Positions 7 to 55,948 of a DNA stretch of 64,000 nucleotides are shown here, piece by piece. Origin of the DNA: Eubacterium sp. (GTDB taxonomy: Bacteria > Bacillota > Clostridia > Lachnospirales > Lachnospiraceae); assembly GCA_024684035.1 (NCBI GenBank), contig JAIKXQ010000038.1:28299-92298 (forward strand), read 5' to 3'. The translations under genes and the position numbers were made by a program. The stretch's first letter is position 1. Each line of letters begins with the position of its first letter. The notes under the pieces are model-generated. The model made no database searches and had not been told where the DNA came from. It worked only from the letters and a program-made list of their open reading frames with translations.

Positions 7-147
7 AAAGAATGTCGCAAGCGACATTCTCGCGCCGAGCGCGGATGCAACGCATCTACATATCGCGCGAGTGCGCATCCTGCGGAGCGTTCTGGTATAG
101 GGATTGCGAAGCAATTTCCTATACCAGAACAAAGTCCGCAAGCGGAC
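7..147. repeat. F1 composite palindromic repeat, long form (copy 1)
   Basis: Hairpins AATGTCGC-AA-GCGACATT (11-28), CTCGCGC/GCGCGAG (29-35/65-71), GTTCTGGTATAGG/CCTATACCAGAAC (89-101/118-130) with inner ATTGC/GCAAT, GTCCGC-AA-GCGGAC (134-147); first ~80 nt nearly identical to 30671-30795. Confidence 0.85.
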
Positions 148-3180: not shown

Positions 3181-3385
3181 GGACGAAGATATGCACGCTC
3201 ACACGTCGTTTCGTCGTCAGCGCTGCGCCGCCTTTTTGTCGCCGATTCCGGAAAACTCGCGCACTTTTCAGCCTATTTATTCAAGTAATATTTGATGTGC
3301 GCTCAGACAGTCCTCCACCGGCGACGCTATGCTCGCGCTTCCTTCCTCAACTTCCTACTGTTCGCGTACATGTCTTCGCCCTGCG
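3181..3385. repeat. F2 intergenic repeat (copy a)
   Basis: CACACGTCGTTTCGTCGTCAGCGCTGCGCCGCCT ... CTATGCTCGCGCTTC shared with the other F2 copies. Confidence 0.6.
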
Positions 3386-6108: not shown

Positions 6109-7449
6109 TCACACCGCAGCGTGAAGTTCTGCATCCAAACTAATGAGTGTAGACAATGTGCATGTGCTTCTATGCACGGCCTCTGGAACTTTTGCCAGAA
6201 GTCGCTGCCCATCCGTCGCCGGAAGGGACTTTATGATCTCACGAATAAAATATCTTGCTCCGATGTTATAGGAGGCATTTAAGTCACAGCTATACAGCTT
6301 TCCTGTTGGAAATTCGCACAGACCGTAGTTCCCTCGTGTCTTGCTGGACTCGTTTCCGCGTAAGACCCTGCCGGAGCCATCGAACGCAAATCTTGATGTT
6401 CCCCAGGCATTGACTCTTGCGATACGGATCCCGCACCTGTGTGCCTTGTCTGTTACCATAGACTGCACATAGCGGGCTTTCCACAGATGGAGTCTCATTT
6501 TCTTCGCGCCGTGCGTACGTCCGCCAAGATCAAGGTGCTCAAATACAATCGCATCCGCATGACATTCGACCGCCAGATCCATGATAAAGTGAGCTGTTTT
6601 TACTGCGATGTCATCATTCACACCGCAGACCAGCTTCCATTGTCTGGAAAGCTTCCGCACCCCGTGACGTTGTGATTTCTTTACACGATCGATCTTGCGC
6701 TTCAGAGAGTCGTATTCTCTCGCCAGGCGAAAAAAACGTCTGCCGAGGACCGTGCCATCTGCGCGCATGACCGAACATGTGCAGGCATTGTTTAACCCGA
6801 GATCAACAGCAAGAACAGTTTGATCAAACACTTCCGTATGGTTAAGTTCTGTTTTCTCCTCAAATGCAAAATCGAGAAACCACTGTTTCCCTCGTTTCTG
6901 CAACGTTGGTACACACTCTTTTCTGGAAACACAGTGTTTTTTGACATAGTCAACATCCGTCTTGCGAAGCGAAACCGAAATCCAGTCCCACGTATTGTGG
7001 TAGAAAACTTTGAGCTTTGCTTTATATTCATCCGTTCGTAGGAACATGTTCCCTTTATACATGGCAGGATAGATACATCCGGCCTTCGGAATGGAAGGTG
7101 CGCACCCTCTTTGTCCTGGATCAGCTGATTCCCACTTTTTCAGATTTGACTGATACGAGCTTACCTTTCCATATCCTTCCGCGATCGCAGCTCTTCTGAG
7201 GTAGGAGGGAAATTTATAGAACTCCATGCCAAAGTCGTACCGCACAACAGGTCGGTTTTTTGTCATCACACTGAAACCTTCCGCCAGCTGTACTGCTTGC
7301 TTCTGGTTGGAACACTGAGCAAATTGATCCCATTCGTTGAGGATGACTTGGATATAGAAATCCACAGCTCTGCGATACAAGCGGATCGTATCTTTGAAAA
7401 TGTGATTGTATTCCTTGATTTTCACGGAATACGTAGACATGATCTTCAT
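6109..7449 (-). CDS. tnpB: IS605 OrfB/TnpB-type RuvC-like protein (RNA-guided nuclease family)
   Basis: RuvC motifs VLAVDLGLNNA, IVFEHLDL, YSCDLNASYNIGARYF. Confidence 0.9.
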   Translation of the reverse strand: MKIMSTYSVKIKEYNHIFKDTIRLYRRAVDFYIQVILNEWDQFAQCSNQKQAVQLAEGFSVMTKNRPVVRYDFGMEFYKFPSYLRRAAIAEGYGKVSSYQSNLKKWESADPGQRGCAPSIPKAGCIYPAMYKGNMFLRTDEYKAKLKVFYHNTWDWISVSLRKTDVDYVKKHCVSRKECVPTLQKRGKQWFLDFAFEEKTELNHTEVFDQTVLAVDLGLNNACTCSVMRADGTVLGRRFFRLAREYDSLKRKIDRVKKSQRHGVRKLSRQWKLVCGVNDDIAVKTAHFIMDLAVECHADAIVFEHLDLGGRTHGAKKMRLHLWKARYVQSMVTDKAHRCGIRIARVNAWGTSRFAFDGSGRVLRGNESSKTRGNYGLCEFPTGKLYSCDLNASYNIGARYFIREIIKSLPATDGQRLLAKVPEAVHRSTCTLSTLISLDAELHAAV

Positions 7450-7470
7450 ATCGCAGAGCCTCCTTTCCCG

Positions 7471-7899
7471 TCAACGATCTTTCTGAGAATCTATGTACTG
7501 TTTAACTTGGTCAAAACTTCGGTCACTGACCGTTACAATACAGTAGGACGGATTCCACAGGTGTTCGCCCCAAAGCTGTTTTTTTAAATCCGGATGATTC
7601 ATGAACAACCATCTTGCAGTATTCCCTTTTAATATTTTGATCATATCGGATGGGAAAAACTGCGGTTTACAGTCAACAAGAAGATGAATGTGATCTGGCA
7701 TAACTTCCATGGCTATGATCGAAAAAGCGTATTCTTTCGCCATATGATTGAGATATCCTTTAATCTCCTCGTCGATCCCATGGACCAGAATTTTCTTTCT
7801 GTATTTCGTACACCACACAATATGATATTGCAGAGAATACACATATCCCCTACCATATGTAAGCTTTGAATCATTTGTATTAGAGATCACTTTATCCAT
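7471..7899 (-). CDS. tnpA: IS200/IS605 Y1-HUH transposase TnpA
   Basis: YHIVWCTKYRKKIL, MPDHIHLLVDC (HUH), QVKQYIDSQ. Confidence 0.93.
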   Translation of the reverse strand: MDKVISNTNDSKLTYGRGYVYSLQYHIVWCTKYRKKILVHGIDEEIKGYLNHMAKEYAFSIIAMEVMPDHIHLLVDCKPQFFPSDMIKILKGNTARWLFMNHPDLKKQLWGEHLWNPSYCIVTVSDRSFDQVKQYIDSQKDR

Positions 7900-7937
7900 A
7901 TAATTATGATACCATATGTAGACTAAAAATAAAAGAA

Positions 7938-7981
7938 GTGGCGGCTAACTCACGACTGAAGTCACGAGAATGCGCCGCCAC
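7938..7981. repeat. IS left-end imperfect palindrome
   Basis: GTGGCGGC ... CTCACGAC-TGAA-GTCACGAG ... GCCGCCAC. Confidence 0.8.
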
Positions 7982-7986
7982 ATTTT

Positions 7987-11648: not shown

Positions 11649-11700
11649 CAGAGCGTTTTGTCTCATAGAGAATGCGAAGCAATTTCCTATGAGACAAAGA
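11649..11700. repeat. F1 repeat, short form
   Basis: TTTGTCTCATAG/CTATGAGACAAA (11657-11668/11687-11698) with inner AATGCGAAGCAATT. Confidence 0.85.
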
Positions 11701-14699: not shown

Positions 14700-14965
14700 C
14701 AGGCATAAAAAAAAGCCTTTCCCCCATGGAACATGGGACAAAAGCCAAACTTCTGCGATACCACCCAAATTGACGTCTGCGACGCCCGCTCACTTACACA
14801 CCATCATGCGTACCCGATTGATAACGGATGGGTTCCCGTCGACATCTACTGAGCGAATGATATCCGCCGTTCAAGCCGCCCTCAGAAGTCCATTCATCAA
14901 AGACCTGTCTGCTGCAATCCCATCACCTGCAACTCTCTTAGAGACAGTGAATCAATGACTACTAC
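14700..14965 (-). promoter_or_regulatory. T-box leader, predicted tryptophan specifier (UGG)
   Basis: T-box core GGGTGGTATCGC (14755-14766), 15-bp terminator plus T7 (14706-14746), specifier GAA-TGG-AC (TGG at 14890-14892). Confidence 0.88.
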
Positions 14966-14987
14966 TCTTCCTCAAAGGTTTATACTG

Positions 14988-15954: not shown

Positions 15955-16225
15955 CGCGGAAGGGGACAAAGTCATACAGCGCGAACGATAGGATGCGAAG
16001 GTTCGAACAATTAGTTCGCGTAAGTTCCAGAGCATACGCGTTCACGCGTCGCTCTCGTCCTCAGCGCTCCGCCGCTTATTCAGGTGCTCCGCCAAAACTC
16101 GCGCACTTTGCATTAATGCCCTTCGGGCGATGTACAAAGTGCGCTCAAACATGTCTCCCGCACCTGTGCTATGCTCGCGCTTCGGTCTCCGCTTCCAAGC
16201 GTTCGCGCCGCATGACTCTGGTACT
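15955..16225. repeat. F2 intergenic repeat (copy b) with inverted tail at its start
   Basis: ACGCGTCGCTCTCGTCCTCAGCGCTCCGCCGC ... GCCCTTCGGGCGATGTACAAAG ... CTATGCTCGCGCTTC; 15955-15993 resembles 25455-25491. Confidence 0.65.
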
Positions 16226-25132: not shown

Positions 25133-25405
25133 TAACGCGGAAGGTGACAGAGTATACACGCGAACACGTCGCTCTCGTCCTCAACGCTCCGCCGCCTATT
25201 GCGGGGTGCTCCCGCAAAAAGCTCATCCGCTTTGTCTTATGCCCTTCGGGCGATGTACAAAGCGGTTTCAGACATTGCACGTCTACGCTCCGCTCCGGTC
25301 CGCGCTAAACGAACGTCCCCCCGGACGTTCAGCGCCGCACCCGCGCTATGCTCGCGCTTCGTCCTTCGCTTCCAAGTGTTCGCTTAGCATAACTCTGTCC
25401 CCTTC
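25133..25405. repeat. F2 intergenic repeat (copy c)
   Basis: ACGTCGCTCTCGTCCTCAACGCTCCGCCGCCTATT ... CGCTATGCTCGCGCTTC ... GTTCGCTTAGCATAACTCTG. Confidence 0.7.
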
Positions 25406-25435
25406 CGCTCACCCCCGATCGATCTTGAAAGTTGA

Positions 25436-25660
25436 GGTGAGCGAGCAGAATCGCGTAAAGGGCAAAGTCATACAGCACGAACGATAGGGCGATGAACGTC
25501 CAGGGGACGTTCGTTTAGCAAGGCGGGAAGTGCGAGCATAGCGCAGGTGCTGGAGGCATGAGAGCACAACGTGCTCGATTTTGCCGGAAGCAGCTGCAAA
25601 TAGGCGGCGGAGCGCTGACAATGAAGCGACGTGTGAGTGTGTATGCTTTGCCATTTACGC
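25436..25660. repeat. F2 intergenic repeat (copy d), inverted relative to copy c
   Basis: Reverse complement contains CACACGTCGCTTCATTGTCAGCGCTCCGCCGCCTATT ... GCGCTATGCTCGCACTTC ... ATCGTTCGTGCTGTATGACTTTG. Confidence 0.7.
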
Positions 25661-30670: not shown

Positions 30671-30795
30671 AAAGAATGTCGCTAGCGACATTCTCGCGCC
30701 GAGCGCGGATGCAACGCATCTACATATCGCGCGAGTGCGCATCCTGCGGAGCGTTTTGTCTCATAGGGAATGCGAAGCAATTTCCTATGAGAGTA
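30671..30795. repeat. F1 composite palindromic repeat, long form (copy 2)
   Basis: AATGTCGC-TA-GCGACATT ... TGTCTCATAGG/CCTATGAGA; compare 7-130. Confidence 0.88.
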
Positions 30796-30985
30796 TAAAG
30801 AGCCGACGGCCTTCCTTGACTCCCCCGACTGTCACCTGTAATCTCTTTCCCTTCCGGAAAACCTGTGATACACTTTCTATGTAATTTACAACGAAGTTAT
30901 CCACATCCGGCGACATTTTTTTGTGGAAAGCCGTAGTCCGAGCTTTCGCCATGCTTATACACTAATAAAAGGAAGGTACCCCACT

Positions 30986-34660: not shown

Positions 34661-34712
34661 CGGAGCGTTTTGTCTCATGGGAAATTCGGAGGAATTTCCT
34701 ATGAGATAAAAA
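34661..34712. repeat. F1 repeat, short form
   Basis: TTTTGTCTCATGGGAAATTC-GGAG-GAATTTCCTATGAGATAAAA. Confidence 0.8.
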
Positions 34713-37020: not shown

Positions 37021-37062
37021 GAGCGTTTTGTCTCACAGGGATTGCGTAGCAGTATTCTATAA
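37021..37062. repeat. F1 repeat, degenerate copy
   Basis: GAGCGTTTTGTCTCACAGGGATTGCGTAGCAGTATTCTATAACA. Confidence 0.6.
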
Positions 37063-37193
37063 CACCTAACAAAGGGCATGGCACCCGAAAGTACCACGCC
37101 CCGTCAGTCCCTCCCACTCCTTTCGATGGAAAGTCTTTTCTTCGATAATTCATTCTTTTGGAGGAAGCTATGATCTTAATATTTTTTTTTTTG

Positions 37194-47331: not shown

Positions 47332-47409
47332 TTATGAAAGGAAGAGTTCCACGTCCAGATTGATTCTGTTTTATGGAAGGAAGGGTTCCCCGTCCAGATC
47401 AATTCTGTG
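47332..47409 (-). repeat. 39-bp imperfect tandem duplication spanning the cellulase stop codon
   Basis: HRIDLDGEPFLP* (47371-47409) then NRINLDVELFLS* (47332-47370). Confidence 0.85.
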
Positions 47410-49398
47410 ATAGCGAAGTCTCCTGCGCTCTGCTCCAGCCGGCGTAGGTGTTGGCCGGGGTGTAGATGTGGGCCGCTGAGTCACTGTAGGCTGCGGCGTG
47501 TTTGTCGGGCGCGGTGTAGCCGTAGGCCTGGGCGTTGCCGTGGGCTTTGGCGTAGGCGTCATTCCCTGATGGTCTCCCACAGGAATCAGTCTCCATCTTT
47601 GGCAGGGATGATTGTTCCACTGATACTGCTGCACATTTGCCCCGTTGTCTGTGTAAGCGTTGATGATCTCCACGCAGCTTCTGTCTCTGGAAGCTCTGGT
47701 CACAATCTCATAGGTTCCGTCCTGATTCGGCACAAACTTGAAGTACTGTGTACTCTGGCCGTTTTTGTAATCCAGATTGATATTGGATCCGTTGTTGCCG
47801 TCATTGACGTTGAGTACCAGACTGTTGCCGTCTCCCAGACGGGAGTAGATGTAATAGTAACCCCAGTTCACCTTTTTCACGATCCATGTCTGATTAATTC
47901 CCGGATTTGCTGTAGAAGCATCCCACTGCTGTACATTGATGCCACTCTGAACGTTCTGCCCTGCAGCATCCAGGTATTTCCCGGAGTTTACATTCTGAAT
48001 CATGTAGATCTTCGACTCATCAATTTCAGCGCCGACGTAGGTGCCGTCCTCATTTCTCTCGTGACCGTCCTGCGGTAACGGTGTGGGTGTAGCTGTCGGT
48101 CTCCAGGGCTGCGGCGTAGGCGTTGCTGTCGGTCTCCAGGGCTGCGGCGTAGGTGTAGCCGTCGGTCTCCAGGGCTGCGGTGTAGGCGTTGCTGTCGGTC
48201 TCGGCGTGTTTGTCGGTCTTGGTGTGTTTGTCGGTCTCGGCGTATTGGTCGGGTGATCCTTTGTTCCCTTTCCGTAACCGTTCCATGTGATGCCATAGTT
48301 CTTCAGCATAGCCTTGAGAACGTCCGGGTAATACCAGGACAGACCGTTTCTGTTGAGCATCTTGAAGTCGCCGCCGTCATCCCAGAGGAAGCACTTGATT
48401 CCTCTCTGAGCCGCGTTCTTTGTGTAGATGTCCGCCCATTTCACACGGGTACTTGTATTGCCTTTGTCAACAGCACCGAACTCACCGATGATCACCGGCA
48501 TGCCCAGAGATTTGAATCTGCTGACCGTTCTGTCCATGAATTCATAGACGTCGTAATCGCTTCCGTAATGTGTATCCGAGTACTCTTTAAAACAGAACTT
48601 GTAAGGTGTGTAGCAGTGTACTTCCGCGATCAGTTTGTTGGGAACCGAATCTGTCGGCTTCTTGAAGTTGTTAAGCTCACTGGTCTGAACAGCTGCCGCG
48701 TAGGTGTTTGTGATCAGGACACGTTTCGCGTTGTTGCCGCCGGATTTTCTGACTGTGTCAACGAAGAGCTGATTCAGCTTGTTGCACTCCTGATAGTTCT
48801 CGTAGGATGTGTCGTTCCAGTTGGAGCTGTTGTCAATGATCTCGTTGTAGCCCTCAAACAGAAGGTGCTCATCATAGTTTTTGAAATATGACGCTACCTG
48901 CTCCCAGATTTTCACAAACTTCTGCTCATTCTGGTATGCATTGCTGGTAGTTGCTTTCAACCATCCGTGAACACCGGTGTCATGGTGTACGTTGATGATG
49001 ACGTAGGTATCATTGTCAATGGCGTAATCAACCACCTCTTTGACCCTGGCGAGCCAGTTGGAGCGGATGTTTGTTCCCTCCATGTTGTGATACCAGGTGA
49101 CAGGAATACGGATTGCGTTGATACCGGTCTCTTTTACCTTGTCGATCATGGCTTTCGTAGCCGGCGGGTTGCCCCAGAGTCTCTCGTAGGCCTGCGGAGA
49201 TCCCTTGTATCCGCCGGCTTTCTCCTCGAAACAATCCAGGTCATTTCCCAGGTTCCATCCGAAATCAATGGCGTCCACGACTTCCTGAGCCGTGACGTCT
49301 CTCATGGATGCCGCAGACACCGATTCCGTTCGAATACCTGCAAGCATGGTTGCCACCATTACCAGAATAAGTAACAGTGAAAATCTTCGTTTTCTCAT
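47371..49398 (-). CDS. Secreted GH5 cellulase with ricin-type lectin domain and Pro/Thr-rich linkers
   Basis: DAIDFGWNLGNDLDC, LLFEGYNEI, PVIIGEFGAVDKGN; SGKYLDAAGQNVQSGINVQQWDAS; signal MRKRRFSLLLILVMVATMLAG. Confidence 0.93.
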   Translation of the reverse strand: MRKRRFSLLLILVMVATMLAGIRTESVSAASMRDVTAQEVVDAIDFGWNLGNDLDCFEEKAGGYKGSPQAYERLWGNPPATKAMIDKVKETGINAIRIPVTWYHNMEGTNIRSNWLARVKEVVDYAIDNDTYVIINVHHDTGVHGWLKATTSNAYQNEQKFVKIWEQVASYFKNYDEHLLFEGYNEIIDNSSNWNDTSYENYQECNKLNQLFVDTVRKSGGNNAKRVLITNTYAAAVQTSELNNFKKPTDSVPNKLIAEVHCYTPYKFCFKEYSDTHYGSDYDVYEFMDRTVSRFKSLGMPVIIGEFGAVDKGNTSTRVKWADIYTKNAAQRGIKCFLWDDGGDFKMLNRNGLSWYYPDVLKAMLKNYGITWNGYGKGTKDHPTNTPRPTNTPRPTNTPRPTATPTPQPWRPTATPTPQPWRPTATPTPQPWRPTATPTPLPQDGHERNEDGTYVGAEIDESKIYMIQNVNSGKYLDAAGQNVQSGINVQQWDASTANPGINQTWIVKKVNWGYYYIYSRLGDGNSLVLNVNDGNNGSNINLDYKNGQSTQYFKFVPNQDGTYEIVTRASRDRSCVEIINAYTDNGANVQQYQWNNHPCQRWRLIPVGDHQGMTPTPKPTATPRPTATPRPTNTPQPTVTQRPTSTPRPTPTPAGAERRRLRYHRIDLDGEPFLP
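48095..48193 (-). repeat. Three 33-bp tandem repeats encoding TATPTPQPWRP
   Basis: Units begin at 48095, 48128 and 48161 (gtcggtctccagggctgcgg...). Confidence 0.9.
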
Positions 49399-49805
49399 CT
49401 TTTCTTGTAAAAACCTCCATAAAATTTTTTTTACGAACACTTATTTTGTCAACTTTATCATATTCTATATATTATCTGATTTCTCATTTTATAATTGGAA
49501 AAATCACAGATTGTTGCAATCTGCGCAATATTATCAGATAAGAAAGGTTATTATCTGACATAAAAAGCATGATTTTAACGCTGCGGTTGTCTTTTTTTCT
49601 CAAAAAAGGTATAATGCGCAAGTCTAATCTATGAACAGATAAAACGTAATTTTTATTACACAGAAACATGTCCGGATGCCCCGGATCATCGGATCATACA
49701 GATCAGACAGTTCCTTATAGCGGTCGAAAAATAACTCGACGTATGCGACGAGTTATTTAAAAACCGTTATACTAGAAAACTGCGTACACAAAAAGGACAG
49801 GCAGC

Positions 49806-51003: not shown

Positions 51004-52590
51004 ATGAACAAATCCAACAATGACACAGATTCCATTTACATCGCAGAATATAATGCAGGTCTCACGGTTTCATCCACACCTTCCTCTACAGGGTACGGCA
51101 ATGCTCAGGTGGATCCGGAAGAGGAACACCTGAATTATTATCAGCGCATGCAGCGGGAGAAGCAGCGTGCCGAAGGAAAACTCCCCGCCGGGAATTCTGT
51201 GAAGTATAAGACTGCTCCCGAGAAGAAAAAGCGGGATCCCCTGGATGATACCTGCCGGCGCGAGGACCCGGAGCTGATGGAGGACGACGATCTCGATTAC
51301 TGTGATCCGGGCGACACCTACGACTTCGGACTCTTCTCTCCCAAAAAGCAGAAGAAGAAAACGGACGACATCCGGAAGAATCGCCGGAAAGACCCGGATG
51401 ATCGGGACGAACGCCCACGCAAGAAGAAGAAAAAGCGCAAACTGCGCCGCATCATTCTGAGCGTCCTTCTTGTATTCGCAGGACTTTTCGCCGCCTTCAT
51501 GCTCTTCCTGCTCGTGGCCTTCAACCGGCTGAACCGGACAGATCCGGTGGCTGACGCCAAGGCCGACGAGGTTACTAGAGCAGCGGGCATAACCCCTTAT
51601 CACGAGGCAGGGGTCATGAACATTCTTCTGATCGGTCAGGACGCGAGAAACGGAGAGACCCAGACCAGGTCTGACTCCATGATCATCGCCAGCCTGAATG
51701 TGAAGAAACATCAGATCACCCTCACCTCTCTGATGAGAGATATGTACGTACCCATCTCCGGCTATGAGGCCAACAAGCTGAACGCCGCCTTTGCCTACGG
51801 CGGCATGGAGACCATCGACGAGACCATTCAGGAACAGTTCGGCATCGACATCGACGGAAACGCCGTCGTTGACTTCAACGGCTTCCTGGAGGCTCTGACC
51901 TCCGTCGGTGATCTTTCCATCGACCTCTCCTACGAAGAAGCCGACTATCTGAATCAGAATCCTGCTCTCGGAGAAAACAATGACCGCATCGAGGGTGTCA
52001 CCTGGGATCTGTCCCCCGGCGTCAACTCACTGACTCCGAAACAGGCTCTCGCCTACAGCCGTATGCGTTACGTGGGAAATTCCGACTGGGATCGTGTCAA
52101 CAGACAGAAGAAAGTAATCCAGGCCGCCTTCTCGAAGGTAAAGCACAACCCCTTCAAGCTGATGCAGGTGATGAACGAGGCTGCGCCAAGTATCACCACC
52201 GATATGACCAACGGCTACCTCTACCGCGCCTTCTTCTACGCCCTCTTCTGCGGAACGGAGATGAAGACCCACACCATCCCCGGTGACGGCGAATTCACCG
52301 CTGATACCGTAGACGGGATGTCCGTACTGATGCCGGATCTGCCGGCCTGCAGACAGTCTCTGATCAATATCATCTACGGAGACGGAACTGCGGACACCGT
52401 GGATACCACTACTTCACCGGCACAGACCAACGACGATAACTATGGAGGAAACGGAGGCGAGGACACCGGAAATTCTCCTGTGGAGGGAGATTACGACGGC
52501 GACGGCTATCCGGATTCCTGGGGCGACAACATCGATCAGGAGGACGCCGACGGCGACGGTATCCCGGATGTCTGGGGAAATTCCTGGTAA
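51004..52590 (+). CDS. LytR-CpsA-Psr (LCP) family protein with acidic Asp/Gly C-terminal repeats
   Basis: MNILLIGQDARNGETQTRSDSMIIASLN, SLMRDMYVPISGY, ALAYSRMRYVGNSDWDRVNRQ. Confidence 0.93.
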   Translation: MNKSNNDTDSIYIAEYNAGLTVSSTPSSTGYGNAQVDPEEEHLNYYQRMQREKQRAEGKLPAGNSVKYKTAPEKKKRDPLDDTCRREDPELMEDDDLDYCDPGDTYDFGLFSPKKQKKKTDDIRKNRRKDPDDRDERPRKKKKKRKLRRIILSVLLVFAGLFAAFMLFLLVAFNRLNRTDPVADAKADEVTRAAGITPYHEAGVMNILLIGQDARNGETQTRSDSMIIASLNVKKHQITLTSLMRDMYVPISGYEANKLNAAFAYGGMETIDETIQEQFGIDIDGNAVVDFNGFLEALTSVGDLSIDLSYEEADYLNQNPALGENNDRIEGVTWDLSPGVNSLTPKQALAYSRMRYVGNSDWDRVNRQKKVIQAAFSKVKHNPFKLMQVMNEAAPSITTDMTNGYLYRAFFYALFCGTEMKTHTIPGDGEFTADTVDGMSVLMPDLPACRQSLINIIYGDGTADTVDTTTSPAQTNDDNYGGNGGEDTGNSPVEGDYDGDGYPDSWGDNIDQEDADGDGIPDVWGNSW

Positions 52591-52956: not shown

Positions 52957-53004
52957 ACTTTTTCATATCGCCGGTCTTCGGATCGGTAACTCCCCCCTCA
53001 TAGA

Positions 53005-53035
53005 AAAGCCGAATCGGATCATCCGATTCGGCTTT
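53005..53035 (+). terminator. Intrinsic terminator preceding an F1 repeat
   Basis: AAAAGCCGAATCGGATCATCCGATTCGGCTTTTTG. Confidence 0.8.
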
Positions 53036-53101
53036 TTGTTTTGTCTCGTGGAAGATTCGGAGGAATTTTCTATTGAGAGAACAAAGTCCGCAAGCGGACT
53101 T
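53034..53101. repeat. F1 repeat, divergent copy with GTCCGC hairpin module
   Basis: TTTTGTCTCGTGGAAGATTCGGAGGAATTTTCTATTGAGAGAACAAA + GTCCGCAAGCGGAC (53086-53099). Confidence 0.75.
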
Positions 53102-53175
53102 CGACTCCCCCATCCCCTCAATCCTGAGGGGAGCACAGCAGGACGAAAGGCGCGCGAGCAGAATCGCGAAGCGAT

Positions 53176-53256
53176 CTTCCCATCTGCGAGCTGCGCATCT
53201 AAGCGGAGCGTTTTGTCTCATAGGGAATGCGAAGCAATTCTCTATGAGACAAAAAC
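53176..53256. repeat. F1 repeat, medium form
   Basis: CTTCCCATCTGCGAGCTGCGCATCTAAGCGGAGCGTTTTGTCTCATAGGGAATGCGAAGCAATTCTCTATGAGACAAAA. Confidence 0.85.
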
Positions 53257-53310
53257 CGGGTGCGGTCCGGACAACAGCTTCCTGCTGTCCGAACCGCACC
53301 CGGTATCTTC
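53252..53310 (-). terminator. Aminotransferase intrinsic terminator
   Basis: Minus strand ACCGGGTGCGGTTCGGACAGC...GCTGTTGTCCGGACCGCACCCGGTTTTTG. Confidence 0.88.
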
Positions 53311-53332: not shown

Positions 53333-54619
53333 TTACATCTCTTCATAAATCTTCTGTGCGCTTACAAGTTTTGTGCACAGAGTGAAGAGTGTTGCCGCGA
53401 TCTTGAGATCTGCCAGAGACGGATAAGTGGGCGCGATACGAATGTTGGAATCCTTCGGATCCTTTCCGTATGGCCATGTAGCGCCTGCTCCTGTCATCAC
53501 TACGCCTGCTTTCTTGCAGTAGGCAACAATATCCTTTGCACAGCCCTCCAGAGCATCAAAGCTGATGAAGTATCCGCCCTTCGGTACTGTCCAGCTTCCT
53601 ACTCCAAGCTCACCGAGGTTCTCCTGAAGAATATCTTCAACCATCTCGAATTTCGGACGGATGATATCTGCATGCTTTCTCATATGCTCAATCATGCCGT
53701 GAATGTCGCCGAAGAAGCGAACGTGACGAAGCTGGTTTACCTTGTCATGTCCGATGGTCTGACGGGTCATGGTCTTTACGATGTCAGCCATATTGTTCGG
53801 GGATGTGGCCATGGCAGCGATTCCGCTTCCAGGGAAAGTGATCTTGGAAGTGGAAGCAAATTTATATACGAGATCCGGATTTCCTGCTCTTTTACATTCC
53901 GCAAGAATCTCGATCAGGTAATCCTGTCTGTCGTCGTACAGGTGATGAATTCCGTACGCGTTATCCCAGAAGATACGGAAGTCCTTGGCTGCCGGTTTCA
54001 ATCTGGCGAAACGTCTGACTACATCATCGGAATAGGAAATACCGGACGGATTCGCATATTTCGGAACACACCAGATACCCTTGATTGCATCGTCCTCGGA
54101 TACGAGTTTCTCTACCATATCCATATCCGGGCCGTTTTCATCGGTGGGAACCGGAATCATCTCAAAGCCGAAGTACTCTGTGATGCCGAAGTGACGGTCA
54201 TATCCCGGAACCGGGCAGAGCCATTTCACCTTGTCGAGTTTGCACCAGGGTTTGTTGCCCATGATTCCGTGGGTGTACGCCCGCGCGATGGTATCATACA
54301 TTACGTTCAGAGAAGAGTTTCCGTAGATGATAATATCATCCGGGTTGTTTTCCATCATGTCACCGATCAGAACCTTTGCCTCCTGAATACCGGTCAGAAC
54401 ACCATAATTCCGGCAGTCCGTTCCGTCTTCACACATCAGATCCGCATCGGAGTTGAGCGCATCCATAAGCCCCATGGAAAGGTCAAGCTGCTCTTTGCAT
54501 GGTTTGCCGCGGCTCATATTCAGGTTGAGTTCCATTCCCTGATACTTCCTGTACTCCGCTCTCAGCTGCTCGATCTCGGATGCAAGTTCTTCTTTGCTCA
54601 TTTCCCTGTATGGTTTCAT
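53333..54619 (-). CDS. Class I/II aminotransferase (aspartate aminotransferase-like, PF12897 type)
   Basis: NLNMSRGKPCKEQLDLS, YGNSSLNVMYDTI, WCPVPGYDRH/CVPKYANPSGI, FASTSKITFPGSGIA. Confidence 0.9.
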   Translation of the reverse strand: MKPYREMSKEELASEIEQLRAEYRKYQGMELNLNMSRGKPCKEQLDLSMGLMDALNSDADLMCEDGTDCRNYGVLTGIQEAKVLIGDMMENNPDDIIIYGNSSLNVMYDTIARAYTHGIMGNKPWCKLDKVKWLCPVPGYDRHFGITEYFGFEMIPVPTDENGPDMDMVEKLVSEDDAIKGIWCVPKYANPSGISYSDDVVRRFARLKPAAKDFRIFWDNAYGIHHLYDDRQDYLIEILAECKRAGNPDLVYKFASTSKITFPGSGIAAMATSPNNMADIVKTMTRQTIGHDKVNQLRHVRFFGDIHGMIEHMRKHADIIRPKFEMVEDILQENLGELGVGSWTVPKGGYFISFDALEGCAKDIVAYCKKAGVVMTGAGATWPYGKDPKDSNIRIAPTYPSLADLKIAATLFTLCTKLVSAQKIYEEM

Positions 54620-55816: not shown

Positions 55817-55895
55817 CTTCCCATCTGCGAGCTGCGCATCTAAGCGGAGCGTTTTGTCTCATAGGGAATGCGAAGCAATTTCCTATGAGATAAAA
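55817..55895. repeat. F1 repeat, medium form
   Basis: CTTCCCATCTGCGAGCTGCGCATCTAAGCGGAGCGTTTTGTCTCATAGGGAATGCGAAGCAATTTCCTATGAGATAAAA. Confidence 0.88.
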
Positions 55896-55948
55896 AAATC
55901 TGCCGCACAAAAGCTTCCACGGAAACTCCGACTCGTGCGGCAGACCAA
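55892..55948 (-). terminator. hcp intrinsic terminator
   Basis: Minus strand TCTGCCGCACGAGTC...TTTTGTGCGGCAGATTTTTT. Confidence 0.8.

Follow-up and report, generated by a model that had tools for sequence, protein, structure and literature searches.

We find that a palindrome of about 44 nt, here named F1, abuts intrinsic terminators throughout a draft genome of Eubacterium sp. (Lachnospiraceae), and that it does so by one fixed end. F1 is likely the terminal hairpin of a small mobile repeat without genes of its own, which inserts with a fixed orientation just 3′ of the T tract of a terminator, leaves this terminator intact and produces no visible target duplication.

F1 was recognised in a stretch of 64,000 nucleotides (the window), in which its sequence is TTTTGTCTCATAGGGAATGCGAAGCAATTTCCTATGAGACAAAA, mostly with the box GCGGAGCG ahead of it. 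Two copies are found between the convergent genes for a LytR-CpsA-Psr protein (plus strand) and an aspartate aminotransferase (minus strand). Read from 53004 to 53304, the DNA carries the plus-strand terminator, an F1 copy, the element body with its small hairpins, the GCGGAGCG box, the other F1 copy and the minus-strand terminator (Table 1). Both copies adjoin the T tract of a terminator, as the first-pass annotation of this DNA had described for 53005-53310. It had also reported the same layout at 11649, 34661, 37021 and 55817. All four sites are real, with a strong hairpin at 55817-55948 and weaker ones at the other three. The gap of ~50 bp noted at 89-210 is borne out, a second small hairpin and about 50 nt lying between F1 and the terminator. 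The copy that had been listed at 30671 as lacking an obvious terminator indeed has no hairpin on its right-hand side.

Besides F1, the window holds a second interspersed repeat family, CTATGCTCGCGCTTC..TCCGCTTCCAAGCGTTCGC, at 3191-3347, 15956-16220 and 25148-25644, in direct and inverted copies and unrelated to F1 in sequence. Tandem repeats of 18 and 33 nt are found in a coding region (47430-48243, within the minus-strand ORF 47371-49440), and a T-box leader is found at 14731-14984 on the minus strand (Rfam RF00230, 99.1 bits).

Table 1. F1 copies, element parts and adjoining terminators in the window (window coordinates; energies in kcal/mol)
Feature	Position	Strand	Remark
F1 variant, arms GTTCTGGTATAGG/CCTATACCAGAAC, internal type	89-130	+	followed by AAAGTCCGCAAGCGGAC hairpin
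F1 copy	11656-11699	+	moderate minus-strand hairpin beyond, -9.1
F1 copy, exception without terminator	30754-30797	+	right side only -3.3
F1 copy	34668-34711	+	moderate minus-strand hairpin beyond, -9.3
Decayed F1 copy	37026-37069	+	followed by minus-strand hairpin, -10.8
Intrinsic terminator of LytR-CpsA-Psr gene (51004-52590)	53004-53037	+	stem about 53004-53036, then T tract
F1 copy, left end of full-length element, diverged	53039-53085	+	directly after T tract
Second hairpin of element, AAGTCCGCAAGCGGACTT	53084-53101	+	
Element body, further small hairpins (CCCCTC..GAGGGG; GAATCGCGAAGCGATCTTC; GCGAGCTGCGC)	53102-53202	+	
GCGGAGCG box	53203-53210	+	ahead of F1 in most copies
F1 copy, right end	53211-53254	+	outer end, read on minus strand, adjoins T tract (T5) of minus-strand terminator
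Intrinsic terminator of aspartate aminotransferase gene (53333-54619, minus strand)	53255-53304	-	stem 53304-53255
F1 copy	55852-55895	+	adjoins strong minus-strand terminator (about 55898-55944)

A pattern search of the 3.08-Mb draft genome gave 95 F1 matches and none with the reversed pattern, and a covariance model built from 18 copies found at least 147, with up to 150 candidates scored per genome. We examined 151 copies together with the surrounding stretches, using as the terminator criterion a hairpin of -10 kcal/mol or better that starts no more than 16 nt from the F1 end. A strong hairpin is found beside one fixed F1 end in 71.5% of these copies, compared to 16.4% of 1500 random intergenic positions, 19.3% of 1500 positions that face a gene and lie no more than 150 nt from its 3′ end, and 11.1% of shuffled F1 flanks. 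Fisher p values for the first two comparisons (about 1e-44 and 1e-38) are to be taken as a guide only, F1 copies being related by descent, although the terminators themselves differ per locus. The genome-wide enrichment on which the first-pass annotation had staked its proposal is thus present. T-runs alone do not account for the association: an A-run of three or more is present in 136 copies, and a strong hairpin adjoins it in 68% of them; for intergenic T-runs, the share is 11% at a length of 4, 19% at 5, 15% at 6 and 17% at 7 or longer. The same arrangement is seen in [Eubacterium] cellulosolvens LD2006 (G010), a member of the same genus, for which 75% of 75 copies have a hairpin at -10 kcal/mol or better.

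The end involved is the one away from the GCGGAGCG box. It runs into an A tract that is followed by a hairpin. On the opposite strand, these form a stem with its T tract, which we read as the intrinsic terminator of the facing gene. In 112 of 143 cases, this gene is encoded on the minus strand relative to F1. Roughly 20 to 25% of the copies lack a strong adjoining hairpin. Several of them run into a second repeat module, AACAAAGTCCGC, and F1 is therefore internal in these copies.

The element itself contains no open reading frame. Its length ranges from 67 to 177 bp with a median of 174 where the far end can be recognised; a solo copy measures about 45 bp, and an element with F1 at both ends about 220 bp. 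By body type, the 151 copies comprise 65 with the long body A, 17 with body B, 6 with the short AAGTCCGCAAGCGGAGCG, 29 with the box only and 34 solo copies. In 13 copies, there is a far hairpin AAAAAGAATGTCGC..GCGACATTCT, which is terminator-like when read in the sense of the neighbouring gene.

Comparison of loci indicates which part of the arrangement is old and which is added. Terminator stems vary from locus to locus while F1 and the body recur, and for orthologous genes in G010 and in the F1-free genome G008 the terminators are mostly there, without F1. Empty sites with an intact terminator include those seen when L051:3743 is compared to L337, L018 to L341 and L005 to L193. For example, the occupied site at L051:3743 reads ...GGCTGTTTTTTCGTCTCATAGG...GATGCGCAGCCCGCAG/AACACAGAATGAACATATTTTCATCAA and its G010 counterpart (L337) ...GGCTGCCTTTTTGTGTGGCAGGACACAGAATGCACATACTTTCATCAA; this short empty sequence could be what is left of an earlier F1. 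At L018, a solo F1 and ten extra bases stand between TTTTTTTA and TGTTTATCGG, and the G010 counterpart (L341) has TTTTTTTTG followed by TGTTTACCG. No target site duplication is visible at the empty sites L337 and L341. Together with the enrichment and the fixed orientation, the varied terminators and the F1-less orthologous terminators lend good support to targeted insertion after terminators, as had been proposed from the window.

The sites also show signs of loss and replacement. In G010, decayed F1-like relics are found at L339 and L349 and a different F1 subfamily at L351. The G010 orthologue of the 55852-55895 site has the terminator, with no more than a decayed F1-like relic at some distance beyond it, and no F1 was seen in the G008 orthologue of this site. 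Pairs of sites with 98% identical flanks can hold different F1 subfamilies, which points to fast turnover at one terminator. Solo F1 copies probably arise by recombination between two F1 ends: at L016, a solo F1 is found between two convergent terminators in the source genome and F1-body-F1 in G010, as expected if the body was lost by recombination between two F1 copies, the reverse order being also possible.

Presence of F1 is patchy. The covariance model found at least 148 copies in G010 and 12 and 36 copies in two other genera, and none in the 14 other congeners, that is, in 14 of the 16 genus members searched. Of 200 genera sampled from the family, 32 contain the core pattern ATAGGAAATN{3,12}ATTTCCTAT; its reversed control gives single hits in four genomes. 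Across these other genera the layout is shared: stem, T tract, F1, A tract, CTCCG box and a body resembling GGATGCGCA. At loci from 30 genera, F1 is flanked on one or both sides by a strong hairpin in 80% of cases, compared to 22% for randomly chosen and mostly coding positions of these loci. F1 was not found in phages, plasmids or IMG/VR contigs.

The outer arms of F1 vary between genera yet remain complementary, with 28 different outer 5-mers over 30 genera. Outer-arm positions 1 to 5 are paired in 27, 25, 25, 25 and 20 loci, respectively, compared to permutation means of 7.8, 10.0, 9.6, 17.7 and 10.1; none of 2000 permutations reached the observed pairing. Judged by this predicted pairing, the F1 hairpin is kept across genera through matched changes while its sequence changes. 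Genome G018 displays similar changes within one genome. Its dominant arm is ATACG, and some copies carry matched two-sided changes beside near-identical bodies while others carry single-sided changes. At two G018 loci, the far arm mirrors interruptions of the T tract on the near side of F1 (TTTCTTTTGCACA/TGTGCAAAAGAAA at L290 and TTTTGTTATACGG/CCGTATAACAAAAG at L309). Three causes remain for the matched arm changes, namely quasi-palindrome correction, selection acting on the hairpin and inverted copying upon insertion.

Quasi-palindrome correction, a template switch during replication known from other bacteria, is tentatively a possible source of the complementarity of the arms. The matched double changes beside near-identical G018 bodies are consistent with it, including the mirrored T-tract interruptions at L290 and L309; nonetheless, single-sided changes persist in several G018 copies (L292, L300 and L305). 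Such correction concerns the arms only, is silent on the terminator position and is compatible with insertion behind terminators.

Selection on the hairpin leads to a different reading, in which F1 would be a cis-acting RNA or DNA device maintained behind terminators, where it would block read-through, protect or trim mRNA 3′ ends or insulate convergent genes. The first-pass annotation had offered an alternative of this kind, a role in 3′-end processing or termination backup. Matched arm changes could indeed mirror selection for a function, the hairpin being conserved through such changes across 30 genera, and the terminator-like far hairpin of 13 copies would bring a second stop. When the strand antisense to the terminator gene is considered, there are 196 G.T wobbles compared to 63 A.C mismatches; this bias is suggestive only, and we rejected it as proof of RNA function, since a few inherited positions dominate it. 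Against such a device stand the absence of F1 from 14 of the 16 genus members searched and its patchy presence elsewhere, the presence of decayed relics and the exchange of one subfamily for another at a given site, and the fact that terminators as a class work without F1 in relatives. We therefore consider a cis-acting device unlikely.

Inverted copying at insertion would involve a gene-less element that recognises the stem-loop of the terminator and base-pairs with the T tract through its A-rich arm, the few target nucleotides behind the T tract being copied in inverted form into the far arm by fold-back synthesis. This copying would explain why the arms vary by copy in some genomes yet stay complementary, even where the T tract is interrupted and the far arm mirrors the interruption. 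We rejected an inverted copy of the target T tract as a general rule for the source genome, in which the far arm hardly varies (GAGACAAAA), in contrast to the T-tract side; it may still apply to G018. Overall, fold-back copying appears improbable to us.

Retention at harmless sites only could mimic targeting in part, but it is very doubtful that F1 inserts widely and merely survives behind terminators: such a filter applies to any intergenic insertion in a compact genome and would accommodate the minority of copies elsewhere, some of them near gene starts, but would not predict abutment within a few nt or a fixed orientation, and only 11-19% is reached by intergenic T-runs and by positions up to 150 nt from gene 3′ ends.

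We return to insertion of a mobile repeat behind existing terminators. An element without genes would be moved by an enzyme acting in trans, and two kinds of candidates were considered. Y1 transposases (PF01797) occur in both F1-bearing and F1-free genomes, and none was found in G142, which has F1-type cores and a genome completeness of 97%; Y1 was rejected as the mobiliser since its presence does not track F1. In the source genome, the stretches fetched around Y1 genes hold no F1 match other than the distant copies of the window itself. This genome also encodes two divergent Y1 proteins of lower score (L037 and L038, at G000:C116:29653-29955 and G000:C119:42488-42829), which might be RAYT-like and whose fetched surroundings contain no F1. 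Reverse transcriptases (PF00078) are found in 16 of 19 F1-bearing compared to 7 of 14 F1-free genomes tested, a weak tracking that is suggestive at most; the source genome has only a PF00078 fragment at a contig end. Among neighbouring genes, we found no repeated family resembling a transposase but only small clusters, in a draft assembly which is fragmented and from which full copies may be missing.

To our knowledge, one class of group II introns has been the main example of insertion aimed at terminators. A group IIC intron docks on a DNA stem-loop, and its EBS1 (A184, A185, A186, G187) pairs with IBS1 (dT35, dT34, dT33, dC32) of the target (PMC10190682). Like F1, these introns insert just 3′ of a stem-loop and T-rich stretch, in one orientation and without target duplication (PMC10190682), and pairing of the target with A-rich element sequence is plausible in both. 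By analogy, the terminator stem-loop plus T tract would be recognised by the insertion machinery and the A tract beside F1 may pair with the T tract of the target, as EBS1 does with the T-rich IBS1. A new copy would then be placed right behind the T tract of a terminator already present, with a fixed orientation and with this terminator left intact.

The comparison with group IIC introns, first drawn from the window, is apt as a mode of targeting: in G010, a group II intron is itself inserted just behind a terminator (L328, around 700-760, GGCAGAGATCGAAATCTCTGCCGTTTGTTTACA/GTGCG). F1 differs from these introns in having no intron RNA domains and no ORF, in consisting of about 45-220 bp of small hairpins and in its copy number of at least 147. 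Rfam gave no group II match in the window or the element region, whereas the real introns of relatives do match, and no relevant bacterial family at gathering or relaxed thresholds. Accordingly, we rejected F1 as a group II intron itself, the domains D1-D4 and D5/D6 being absent.

By form, F1 is closer to the small palindromic repeats. REP and REPIN sequences, associated with RAYT (Y1) proteins, are likewise short, palindromic and intergenic, with high copy number, fixed orientation and no target duplication. In contrast to them, F1 abuts the T tracts of terminators, was not seen flanking the Y1 genes of the source genome and is not tracked by Y1. IS200/IS605 elements and their non-autonomous derivatives (PATEs) have hairpin ends and insert 3′ of a fixed short sequence without target duplication, and F1 resembles them in these three respects. 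The window has an IS605-type pair of its own (6109-7899, minus strand), in which a Y1 transposase (PF01797, E 1.4e-42) is accompanied by a TnpB/OrfB-like protein whose PF01385 match falls slightly short of the threshold. A strong hairpin with a T-rich stretch lies upstream of this pair, around 7930-7985, so this IS605 may also stand behind a terminator. We found no link between F1 and the window's IS605 copy, though the two may be related; the G010 copy of this IS605 is colinear through the flanks and therefore does not reveal its ends.

RUP-like MITEs carry terminal inverted repeats and target duplications, a combination not seen in F1. We know of no tendency of BOX, RUP or SPRITE to abut terminators. 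These pneumococcal repeats resemble F1 in being modular and interspersed, built of small stem-loops and present in many copies (PMC3049150). F1 is thus REP- or MITE-like by form and group IIC-like by targeting, and matches the full definition of neither. Among open-access papers, our literature search found no description of a small terminator-aimed repeat in Lachnospiraceae.

In a compact genome, intrinsic terminators are among the few places where added DNA breaks neither a gene nor an operon. A small repeat aimed at them means that group IIC introns are not alone in using this strategy. In these genomes, the mobile repeat will be picked up by terminator predictors and by searches for RNA motifs. 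With over a hundred natural insertion sites per genome, F1 also offers material for studying how a stem-loop plus T tract is recognised, and F1-type elements may account for a good share of the intergenic repeats in Lachnospiraceae.
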